Below, in pieces: positions 632 through 25,335 of a stretch of 64,000 nucleotides of DNA. Position 1 is the stretch's first letter. Every line of letters starts with the position of its first letter. Position numbers and translations under genes: made by a program. Source of the stretch: Russula earlei (Eukaryota; Basidiomycota; Agaricomycetes; Russulales; Russulaceae); contig JAGFNK010000190.1 of assembly GCA_025769875.1 (NCBI GenBank), positions 1 through 64,000 on the forward strand. Direction: 5' to 3'. The notes under the pieces were generated by a model, which was given only the letters and a program-made list of their open reading frames with translations, was not told the origin of the DNA and ran no database searches.

Positions 632-2249
632 GCATGTTTTCAATTAAAACTATGATAGGTGGGAAGAGAATATAAAACTTTTGTATTGCCTTCAGCAATA
701 ATAGAAATACCCCAAGAGGTTGAACAGAGTGGAGCCCAAGCATATTATCCCACACTTGTGCAGCTATAGATTCAGGTTGCTAGTATACAGACCCCTAGGG
801 GGCACACAAAGTTGAGAGGCTCAAGGTAGTCCTAGATATGAATATAAACAAGACCTGAGAGTTGAAGATTATTGGCAATTGTGTTCAGTCTGGAGGACTC
901 ACCTGTGCTTTTCATCCCCCATTCATTTGGCAAGTGATCAATTAACCCACATTTGTGCAGCTGTAGATTCAGATTGCTAGTATACAGACCCCTGAGGGCA
1001 CAAGGGCTCAAGGTAGTCCTGGATATGAATATAAACATGGACTGAGAGTTGAAGATTATTGGCAATTGTGTTCAGTCTGAAGGACTCACCTGTGCTTTTC
1101 ATCCTCCATCCATTTGACAAGTGATCAAGCATCCTGCAACTGAACAAGGTAAACAATATTCTATATATTCTAACAGGAAGATCAAGAAGCTGTTATGGCA
1201 GTGGGACAACTGGCATGCAGTTATGCTTAGTTATTATGTGTGTAACAAAAGAGTAATCCTTACACAGTAATTCAGCCATATTCACATTTGCAGTTTGGAT
1301 CTTTCACTGGTGCTTTTATAGCATAAGCAAGAACTTTGTTCAAAACTTATGCCAATATGCCACATAAAAAGGCACTTGCAAAGTAAGAACTGGTGCTTGA
1401 TCCTTGGGAATCCTTATACATATACAATATATAATATCAGTACTATAGATGAGATGGTAGTGATCCTCTCAATTGAGTTCTTACACTAGTTCTTACTTGC
1501 AAGCATTCTCTTATATGGCATGAGTTTTGAACAAAGTTCTTGCTTATGCTATAAAAGCACCAGTGAAAGATCCAAACTGCAAATGTGGATATGGCTAAAT
1601 TACTGTGTAAGGATTACTCTTTTCTTACACACATAATAACTAAGCATAACTGCATGCCAGTTGTCCCACTGCCATAACAGCTTCTTGATCTTCCTGTTGG
1701 AATATATAGAATATTGTTCATCCTTGTTCAGTTGCAGGAATGCTTGATCACTTGCCAAATGGATGAGGGATGAAAAGCACAGGTAAGTCCTTCAGACTGA
1801 ACACAATTGCCCATAATCTTCAACTCTCAGTCCATGTTTATATTCATATCCAGGACTACCTTGAGCCTCTCAACTTTGTGTGCCCTCAGGGGTCTGTATA
1901 CTAGCAACCTGAATCTACAGCTGCACAAATGTGGGTTAAATTGATCACTTGCCAAATGAATGGAGGATGAAAAGCACAGGTGAGTCCTTCAGACTGAACA
2001 CAATTGCCAATAATCTTCAACTCTCAGGCCTTGTTTATATTCATATGTAGGACTACCTTGAGCCTCTCAACTTTGTGTGCCCCCAGGGGTCTGTATACTA
2101 GCAACCTGAATCTATAGCTGCACAAGTGTGGGGTAATATATGTGGGCTCCACTCTTTTCAACCTCTTGGGGTGTTTCTATCATTGCTGAAGGCAATACAA
2201 ATGTTTTATATTCCCTTCCCACCTATCATAGTTTTAACTAAAAACATGC
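632..2249. repeat. Long imperfect palindrome, two ~765 bp arms
   Basis: The left arm (about 632-1396) reads as the reverse complement of the right arm (about 1484-2249), with an AT-rich spacer of roughly 90 bp. Outer ends match (GCATGTTTT at 632, AAAACATGC at 2241). Each arm also holds two diverged tandem copies of a unit of about 198 bp, recognisable by the string GCTAGTATACAGACCCC. A further fragment of that unit follows at about 2250-2287. Single-base differences are spread along both arms, so this is an aged structure and not an exact assembly fold-back. It could be a fold-back element or an inverted duplication. No coding potential was seen. Confidence 0.85.
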
Positions 2250-2292
2250 TTCAACTCTCAGGCCTTGTTTATATTCATATCTACACCCAACC

Positions 2293-3160
2293 ATGCTTCC
2301 CGAGTCTCGTACCTCTTCACCCACTCCCACTCTTGTCAATGTTGACGTCGTTGTCCCAGAAGGGCCCCTCTCCCCCAGTCGATCGCCGCAGTCCTCAACG
2401 GACAGCCTGAGCTCGACCCCGACACCCTCCGTGGGATGGTGGCCGGGGTTCTTCTCACAGTGGCTGCGCGTGAAATGGAACTGGCCACGCGCACCGAAGC
2501 CCTCCTTTGTGCCGAGCTCCAAGCCTCCCATCAGGGCCGACACCTTGGTTGACCTCACCAACCGCCTTCGACAGGCTACCGAACGACCTGCGCTCGCCGT
2601 TTGCCCGGAGGGATTTGTCCCCAACATGGGGCATGCCCCGGGACTTTGGCTCCCTGGGACCAAGGGACGTGCACAGCTCGCGCATTTTGTCCAGCGCAGC
2701 CCCCATTCCCCCACCATGGTCGTCGGAGTCATGGGTGACTCCCCCGATGAACCCCGCATCGGCATGGAGATATTTTGCCTCCCCAGTCAGCGACCCCATT
2801 GGCCCCATTGACGTCCTCCCCAGCTGGCTCCTCAAGCAGATGGGAGCCAACTCCCCCACCTTCCACCGCCTACTCAAGGAGGCCGGCAAGGCCGACGACT
2901 GGGGGCTGGCCACCAACGTACAGTGCTACAGAGGCTGGGATGAGCACATCAGTGCTCTCCAGGCTGACATCTCTCAGAAGGAGGCTGAACTCAGGACAGC
3001 GCGGGAGTCCCAGAATTGCGCGCGTTACTGACTCGAGGCCGCCCGACTCCCCGACCATGTCTCTCACATTCGCGTGTCGTGGGATGGCACCCCCCTACGC
3101 GCGCCGTGTCTCCTTGGCAGGGTGGCACAACCATGGTCTGGGACGTCCCAATCTCGATGA
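2293..3160 (+). pseudogene. Decayed 3'-terminal ORF of an LTR retrotransposon
   Basis: Protein-like stretches occur in all three plus-strand frames and join into one decayed reading frame. The start at 2293 has a Ser/Pro-rich N-terminus. About 2385-2550 encodes an Ala/Leu/Glu-rich helix (REMELATRTEALLCAEL) in another frame. About 2800-3160 encodes a third segment (PSWLLKQMGANSPTFHRLL, then a Gln/Glu-rich coiled-coil-like part) in yet another frame. That last part contains one internal TGA near 3029 and ends with TGA at 3158-3160, only six bases before the LTR-like sequence. Position and decay suggest the last ORF of a truncated LTR element. I do not recognise a catalytic domain. The parallel is the extra 3' ORF of the gypsy element at 61.4-63.2 kb. 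Confidence 0.6.
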
Positions 3161-3166
3161 GGGTGA

Positions 3167-3496
3167 TGACACCGCCAGCCCACTCGTGGGCCATGTTGCA
3201 CGGGAAGTCACAACGGTCGCATGGTTCGACCGTTCAAGCTTTGATGTGGTGCCGCAGCATGGTAGTGAGGGGGACATGAGGCCGCTCGATAGTGTATATA
3301 AGGAACCTGTCCTACATCTAAGAGAGGACAAGTCGAATCTTTTGTCGTATTCCCCCACGAACAATAGCAGTGACTTTCTCATCCACTTCTCTCTCTCTTT
3401 TCTCTCTCTCTCTCTCTCGCTCAAAAGCCACGTTGGACGTGGGCTTACCTAAGGTTCTCACGCTCGAACTCTGAGTACCCGTACGCGGCGGTGACA
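3167..3496 (+). mobile_element. LTR (330 bp), 3' LTR of a truncated element
   Basis: The sequence begins TGACACCGCC and ends GGCGGTGACA, a 9/10 inverted terminal match with TG...CA ends. It holds a TATA-like GTATATAAGG at about 3293 and a CT-rich tract at 3390-3420, as expected for an LTR promoter and leader. The upstream coding remnant stops six bases before it, and a purine-rich GAGGGTGA abuts the 5' edge like a polypurine tract. No 5-bp duplication flanks it (GGTGA versus AGTTG), which fits a 3' LTR whose 5' partner is lost. Confidence 0.6.
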
Positions 3497-3999
3497 AGTT
3501 GGGCGACGCACAGACGACAGCACAGCCCTTCCCCCCGCCGGATCCTAACCAACATTCGACGCCGCAAGCAAACAATTTTCGCGCATGCTTCCATCGCTCG
3601 CTCGTCACGCCGTCCCTTTGCACCATGTTTCTTTGCCCACCGTTCCGATGTCACTACCGGAGTCTCAGCCCCGCTAGCAGTTGTCTCACCTCAAGCTGCC
3701 TCAGTTCCAGCTTTGCCCGCCACTCTGCCACCTCAGTTTCTGGCCCTCCCGCCGCCTCAGCCTCGCCCCCCACTACCTTAGCTTCGCCCTCTCCAGTCAC
3801 AGTCTTGCCGACCACCGCCGCCTCCTTGTTGCTCACTGTCGCTGTCTCAGCCCCCATTCCTGCCTCTCATTTTTCTCTTCAACCGAGCGCAATGCTAAGA
3901 GCGATGGCTCTCAAAAGTACAGAGCGCGTCGAGGCAGAGAAGCGCACGGAAGCAGTACGTTGTCACCGAGTCACGGAGCGGTCTCCTTCCTCTTCGTGA

Positions 4000-20193: not shown

Positions 20194-21257
20194 ATGTCAA
20201 CAAATGATGACCTGGTCACTTCCGACGACCCCTTGCATGTGAACAACCCTCCCTCGGCTACGCAACCTCCTGCACCAGACTAACCCTCTTTTGGTTGCCT
20301 AGCCCGCCAACCTCATCCCTGAGCTCTGTCGGGGTTTCTATCACCTGGGTTGGGTGACTGGAACTGGCGGAGGTATCAGCATCCGGGTCGGGTCAGTCGT
20401 TTCGTATCGTTTCTTTTTTTTTTTTTTGCACTGAAAGACTCACGACGAATACATTTCCAGGGATAAGGTCTACATCGCCCCTTCCGGCGTACAGAAGGAA
20501 CGCATCCTGCCCTCTCACATCTTCGTGCTGCCCTTTCCCTCTCCGGATGGCGATCGCTTCTTCCTTAGACGACCATCGCTTAACCTCAAAGAATCTGCCT
20601 GTACACCCCTCTTCTGGAACGCGTTCGATTTGCGCGGCGCGGGTAGCTGCATACACACACACTCCCAGAATGCTGTCATCGTTACCCTCACGACGCCTGG
20701 TCCTATTTTTAGGATATCACATCAGGTGAGGCACAAATCAACCCTCGGGTAGAGACTTAAATCGCCGTTTTTTCCGTGTGCGTCGTAGGAGGTAAAGTCT
20801 ACACCGCGTTACGAATCATGACACGCAGCACGTATCAACGCACGATTACAGATGATCAAAGGCGTCCGCATAGGCGGCATGAAATCTGCGCTTTCCTACC
20901 TCGACACTTTAGAGGTGCCGATTATCGAAAACACACCCAACGAGGAGGATCTCAAAGATAGCATGGCCGACGCAATGAGGCAGCACCCAGATGCCGCCGC
21001 AATTCTCGTCCGCCGACACGGTATTTACGTATGGGGTACGGTAGCGGTCTCAGTAATGCGACGCACTGACCTCGCCGATGCACTTACAGGGGCCGACTGG
21101 GAAAAGGCAAAGACGCAGACAGAGGTAGGCAGGCCCTTGGTGACCTGGCCATGCTGCCGGTTTGTTGACGCCGCGTCGGTTTGCTCAGTGTCTTGATTAT
21201 CTGTTCGAGATCGCGATCAAGATGAAGGGGCTGGGCCTTCCTCTCGTGAAAGAATAG
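20194..21257 (+). CDS. mtnB (MDE1): Methylthioribulose-1-phosphate dehydratase
   Basis: Seven exons give 229 residues: 20194-20238, 20303-20391, 20461-20725, 20789-20791, 20852-21035, 21090-21124 and 21189-21257. This class II aldolase-fold zinc enzyme dehydrates methylthioribulose-1-phosphate in the cytosolic methionine salvage pathway. Signatures are [34 protein letters not shown], the zinc ligands H110 and H112 in [31 protein letters not shown]190 in RRHGIYVWG and [14 protein letters not shown]. Spacing H110-E134-H190 equals H115-E139-H195 of human APIP. E134 is encoded alone by a 3-nt exon (20789-20791). Omitting it leaves the frame open but deletes that Glu. The alternative ATG at 20178 leads to a stop after eight codons, so 20194 is chosen. 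Confidence 0.95.
20789..20791 (+). other. 3-nt microexon (GAG) of mtnB
   Basis: Intron 20726-20788 ends CGTCGTAG and intron 20792-20851 starts GTAAAGTC, leaving just GAG between them. Both introns are of normal length (63 and 60 bp) and both junctions are phase 0. The encoded Glu restores the family-invariant HQEMIKG string. Confidence 0.85.
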
Positions 21258-21510
21258 CGTGAGCGCGTTGCAAGGATGGATCAGGAATCAGTAAACTGTG
21301 TAGGAGTACAAGTTAGCCACATTATCAATCAGAAGGTCTCGTAACGGTCCCGTGACTCGACGCGTCGCGTAAGCGTGGCAAGCTGTTATCACCACCACAA
21401 TAACCTAACCACAGACTGACAACTCTGCCTCATGAAGATAGACAACGTACTCACTTATATGATGGACCGACGTTCCGCCTCATCCAAGGTCATCGGAATC
21501 CCTCGTCACG

Positions 21511-25335
<3,825 letters not shown>

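Follow-up and report, generated by a model that had tools for sequence, protein, structure and literature searches.

The window analyzed here is a stretch of 64,000 nt of genomic DNA from Russula earlei. Between positions 20194 and 21257 of the + strand, a homology-guided model placed an mtnB gene with seven exons and six introns, encoding a product of 229 amino acids. The third and fourth introns enclose an exon of three nucleotides. The parts of the gene are as follows.

20194..20238, + strand: mtnB exon 1, from the start codon to DPLH (homology-guided model)
20239..20302, + strand: mtnB intron 1, 64 nt, phase 0, GTGAAC...CCTAG, with a CTAAC branch-like site from 23 nt before its end
20303..20391, + strand: mtnB exon 2 (homology-guided model)
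20392..20460, + strand: mtnB intron 2, 69 nt, phase 2
20461..20725, + strand: mtnB exon 3, ending in ...RISHQ and carrying C92 and the zinc ligands H110 and H112
20726..20788, + strand: mtnB intron 3, 63 nt, phase 0, GTGAGG...GTAG; in-frame stop if retained
20789..20791, + strand: mtnB microexon, GAG, 3 nt, Glu134 (equivalent of E139 in human APIP)
20792..20851, + strand: mtnB intron 4, 60 nt, phase 0, GTAAAG...ACAG; in-frame stop if retained
20852..21035, + strand: mtnB exon 5, starting with MIKG and carrying the zinc ligand H190
21036..21089, + strand: mtnB intron 5, 54 nt, phase 1
21090..21124, + strand: mtnB exon 6 (homology-guided model)
21125..21188, + strand: mtnB intron 6, 64 nt, phase 0
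21189..21257, + strand: mtnB exon 7, to the stop codon

In intron 4 a branch-like site, TCATGAC, was seen by eye at 20816-20822; scripted pattern scans of this intron returned no branch site. Intron 2 contains an unbroken run of 14 T, and the longest T run found by eye in the introns flanking the microexon was 6. Downstream of mtnB, the frames at 21420-21960 on the + strand look to us like the beginning of a RecQ-type DNA helicase interrupted by short introns.

The predicted protein scored 195.4 bits against the MtnB model TIGR03328, above the curated cut-off of 137.05, and matched human APIP (PDB 4m6r) with E = 1.1e-82, the HQEMIKG string being matched in the alignment. The best named matches in the protein search came from Lactarius and Multifurca. 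Judged by these protein matches, the gene is a normal mtnB, coding for methylthioribulose-1-phosphate dehydratase in a mushroom of the Russulales. For APIP, we take E139 to be the proposed acid/base residue. Residue numbers for APIP were used as they appear in PMC6602929 and PMC5008309, and the motifs were aligned with 4m6r. Residues C92, H110, H112, E134 and H190 of the Russula protein correspond to C97, H115, H117, E139 and H195 of APIP at a constant offset of 5, so that the equivalence of H110-E134-H190 with H115-E139-H195, part of the original prediction, was upheld. The zinc ligands are present as H110, H112 and H190; the essential Cys is present as C92, and the essential Glu as E134, the latter only when the GAG exon is included. 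In PMC5008309, C97, H115 and E139 of APIP are called essential for MtnB activity, and mutants of these residues did not rescue proliferation after APIP knockdown, with a figure on growth with MTA replacing methionine; the essentiality of E139 is also supported by PMC6602929.

In the source genome (66.6 Mb in 1374 contigs), no second MtnB copy was found by a PF00596 profile search and a DNA search. The remaining Aldolase_II match lies on contig C1324 and was rejected as an mtnB copy, being a different, bacterial-looking gene. At 1399-3540 of locus L001 on that contig, a class II aldolase/epimerase-like open reading frame of 231 amino acids with a PF00596 match adjoins one of 448 amino acids, both on the same strand and intronless. 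The 448-amino acid frame resembles what we take to be a ribulokinase, and the pair is presumably of the bacterial-looking araBD type. It is probably contamination of the fungal assembly.

The splicing of the central part of the gene was examined by enumeration. Between 20700 and 20880, all introns of at least 35 nt were considered with GT, GC or AT as donors and AG or AC as acceptors. This yielded 23 single introns and 624 intron pairs as in-frame solutions, with 31 of the pairs being GT-AG throughout. The sequence QEMIKG was obtained from one enumerated solution only, the pair 20726-20788 plus 20792-20851, and from no single intron. A single GT-AC intron at 20700-20849 yielded EMIKG but removed conserved residues before it. 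Retention of intron 3 or intron 4 led to an in-frame stop within 10 codons of the respective donor. Skipping of GAG kept the frame open and gave HQMIKG, with one residue fewer. Taken by sequence, the 3 nt between two GT-AG introns lie within the usual definition of a microexon (≤30 nt between canonical introns). A GAG exon between GT-AG introns of 63 and 60 nt had been predicted, together with a Glu that restores HQEMIKG and a skipped form that stays in frame yet loses the E139 equivalent. The coordinates proved exact, the Glu came from the sole pair giving QEMIKG and was aligned in 4m6r, and skipping kept the frame open, as proposed. At the sequence level, GAG was thereby confirmed as a 3-nt exon encoding the Glu equivalent to E139.

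To place the exon in a wider context, homologues of the protein were surveyed. Three protein searches returned 4,382, 5,377 and 5,590 homologues, and the best 120 of each were combined into 150 distinct cluster representatives, all of which were used. An NCBI record was available for 114 of these, and 36 were recorded in jgi or lgn only. The longest contigs of the latter group measured 924-4,348 nt, with 29 of 36 below 2,000 nt, and carried unbroken MtnB frames of 227-394 amino acids. From the short length and the unbroken frame, we infer that these contigs are spliced transcripts, and they are called transcript-like below. EMIKG was present in 36/36 transcript-like homologues versus 69/114 NCBI-recorded ones among the 150 listed (Fisher p = 4e-7, a rough value in which related sequences are treated as independent). 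P0001 and P0002, the nearest transcript-like relatives, were 92% identical to the window protein and contained HQEMIKG, and for 29 of the 36 transcript-like proteins the nearest NCBI-recorded neighbor was an Agaricomycete. The 45 failures among the 114 listed NCBI-recorded proteins comprised 42 without E before MIKG and 3 without MIKG. Plain omission accounted for 32 of the 42 (31 with HQ, HL or RQ before MIKG and 1 with HW), an extra Q for 5 and other patches for the remaining 5. Among the 69 NCBI proteins with EMIKG, correct annotation and absence of an intron look the same at the protein level; three of them (P0009, P0035 and P0110) had an odd insert before EMIKG.

Going by NCBI names, every one of the 45 failures comes from the Agaricomycetes; class membership was checked for Sistotremastrum, Jaapia, Exidia and Pisolithus, and the remaining failing proteins we take to belong there as well. 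Their orders, assigned mostly from general knowledge, are presumably Russulales, Agaricales, Boletales, Hymenochaetales, Jaapiales, Auriculariales and Sistotremastrales. Among the listed NCBI-recorded proteins, with groups likewise assigned from general knowledge, there were no failures in other Basidiomycota (0/17) or in Cantharellales and Sebacinales (0/13). Comparison of all Agaricomycetes with the other NCBI-recorded proteins (45/97 versus 0/17) gave a Fisher p of 9e-5, and comparison of the other Agaricomycetes with Cantharellales plus Sebacinales (45/84 versus 0/13) gave 1.5e-4, both rough values that ignore kinship. From this distribution, the 3-nt exon may have been gained once Cantharellales and Sebacinales had already branched off, which is a lead only, as proteins cannot show introns. 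mtnB genomic DNA of other fungi was also sought. The exon-intron pattern had 0 matches in viral contigs, and a protein-guided scan of viral contigs gave 1 stretch by pattern and 0 confirmed. A slightly looser version of the pattern had 19 matches in genome contigs, which were rejected as chance; they lay in bacterial or archaeal records and had no tblastn match at E <1. With the spliced MtnB as query against the collected loci, tblastn gave E <1 only in loci of the source genome itself (L001, L002 and L022).

The clearest single case is that of Pisolithus microcarpus. Here the NCBI protein P0059 (234 amino acids, HQMIKG) is the same as P0028 (235 amino acids, HQEMIKG, from a contig of 927 nt) except for the Glu, and P0033 from strain 441 reads HQQMIKG and is otherwise the same as both. 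What looks like one mtnB gene is thus present in three public forms, with Glu missing, replaced by Gln, or in place. Only the Glu form comes from a transcript-like contig, and the two annotations lose the Glu in two different ways. A real loss of Glu in this species was rejected because the otherwise identical contig carries it. Other proteins contain intron traces that survived in faulty annotations as inserts of the type HQ-V or HQE-V. HQ-VR was found in P0034 (Mycena crocata), P0035 (Amylostereum) and P0092 (Gymnopilus), HQ-VK in P0113 (Suillus), HQ-VG in P0100 (Russula vinacea), and HQE-V in P0086 (Mycena venus) and P0087 (Jaapia). In the window, the first and second donors flanking the microexon read VR and VK when translated through. 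In P0110 (Phellinidium pouzarii) the insert finishes with GLFLQ immediately ahead of E, which could be the reading of a pyrimidine-rich tract followed by CAG. Several cases do not read as simple run-on at a donor: the five proteins with an additional Q, HQA... in P0110 and P0114 (HQASI in P0114), HQEASGE in P0009 and HW in P0042. For the extra Q, our guess is that a nearby CAG was used as acceptor. For Favolaschia claudopus, four or more MtnB proteins are annotated (P0015, P0018, P0052 and P0115), three with Glu and one without, possibly duplicates that were annotated differently.

These observations bear on the remaining claim of the original prediction, that splicing could switch methionine salvage between active and dead enzyme. 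The exon would then be a regulated cassette, and controlled skipping, for example in response to sulfur or methionine supply, would produce a dead full-length subunit and reduce methionine salvage. None of the 36 transcript-like representatives lacked the Glu, although clustering into representatives would hide rare or condition-specific isoforms. The Glu-less sequences were all NCBI-recorded proteins; a contig that is otherwise identical exists in a single case, and it has the Glu. The survey therefore did not bear out the switch, and we regard it as very unlikely despite several features that would suit it. The skip leaves the frame open and removes exactly the equivalent of a residue described as essential in APIP (PMC5008309), and a switch-like microexon is described for Xlr2 of Trichoderma virens (PMC11121469). 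Splicing can produce a dead MtnB, as an alternatively spliced short isoform of human APIP is reported to be inactive (PMC3532061), and a dead subunit could matter, as APIP is described as a tetramer (PMC5008309). There is equally little to recommend the idea that the exon was kept across Agaricomycete orders since it can be skipped, with Glu-less subunits entering the tetramer under certain conditions and damping methionine salvage. If true, the skippable exon would be a single-residue on/off switch set by splicing.

Removal of the whole region as one intron of 126 nt, leaving a real Glu-less MtnB (a pseudo-enzyme or one with altered chemistry), would also give an open frame through HQ-MIKG, and the plain omissions that dominate the NCBI-recorded proteins without E could be read in its favor. 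The presence of Glu in every listed transcript-like relative, including the two closest, argues against it, as does the lack of a second MtnB copy in the searches of the genome. An arrangement of AG, GAR and GT with at least 45 nt on each side was obtained in only 0.21% of 20,000 dinucleotide shuffles of the 126-nt stretch. Introns of 63 and 60 nt fit the other mtnB introns (64, 69, 54 and 64 nt), and a single intron of 126 nt would be about twice as long. We consider this explanation most improbable. A nested or recursive removal is scarcely credible either: the acceptor and donor do lie 3 nt apart, but a stwintron requires that an internal intron break up a splice element of the external one, whereas both introns here have complete, uninterrupted GT...AG ends and neither interrupts the other, and in a zero-length recursive splice site AG is directly followed by GT, whereas here GAG separates them.

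The explanation we favor, with a probability of roughly 0.9, is that the catalytic Glu of mtnB is encoded by a constitutive 3-nt exon that several Agaricomycete orders have in common and that gene finders often overlook. Both introns would then be present in the other orders, and GAG would be included in the mRNA of R. earlei itself. Without the Glu the enzyme should be dead, so constitutive inclusion is expected, and the proteins annotated without it should likewise be catalytically dead. Gene finders would often join HQ to MIKG and so drop the residue. In fungal introns of such short length, splice sites are generally paired across the intron, and an exon of 3 nt is too small for splicing complexes on both sides at once. 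For this latter reason the two introns are presumably removed successively, each short intron being recognized as its own unit (intron definition). Removal of the first would join GAG to ...CATCAG, after which these three bases would form the exon end of the following donor, GAG/GTAAAG. We infer both this order of removal and the intron-definition mechanism. Because GAG would serve as a codon and as the exon end of a donor, the catalytic residue and the splice signal may constrain the same three bases.

An exon of this kind is near the lower size limit for a coding exon and contributes exactly one catalytic residue. The EMIKG string is absent from 45/114 of the listed NCBI-recorded homologues, an error that stays silent as the frame is kept and that would misdirect metabolic models as well as enzyme annotation and structure prediction. 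As skipping is safe for the frame and costs a single residue, the gene also offers a simple test case for the pairing of small fungal introns around a 3-nt exon. No mtnB microexon was found in the literature at the level of titles and the openings of abstracts, in searches in which no query paired the mtnB name with microexon.

Several known systems can be compared with the mtnB exon. In the Fusarium P450 CYP621A, a 1-nt exon between introns is described with support from transcript reads (PMC12940212). It resembles the mtnB case as an ultra-small fungal exon within a conserved protein motif that is needed for the correct protein and poses an annotation problem. It differs, as described there, in that its omission shifts the frame, in that the motif is PKG with no catalytic residue, and in its occurrence in Fusarium species; in mtnB the annotation error is silent because omission of 3 nt keeps the frame. 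Plant microexons, such as the 1-nt exons of APC11 and VPS55, are likewise described as conserved and often absent from reference annotations; unlike the mtnB exon, they form a large set in other genes and were found by RNA-seq pipelines (PMC8831610). The Xlr2 microexon of T. virens is similarly one of a filamentous fungus that is absent from the JGI gene model, but it belongs to a transcription factor and is described as alternatively included with glucose (PMC11121469), and no such regulation was seen for mtnB. P450 genes of the basidiomycete Phanerochaete chrysosporium have very small exons and introns of 45-55 bp, but the shortest exon described is 6 bp, the protein family is a different one, and no exon for a catalytic residue features in that description (PMC1184071). 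The short isoform of human APIP concerns the same enzyme and an inactive splice form; unlike a form without the Glu exon, it is reported to lack the first 38 residues (PMC3532061). The element of surprise is limited, since plants and Fusarium already provide examples of tiny exons that annotation overlooks, as described in PMC8831610 and PMC12940212. What mtnB adds is an exon of 3 nt that supplies one catalytic residue in an enzyme of primary metabolism, that probably extends over several orders and whose omission from annotations is silent.
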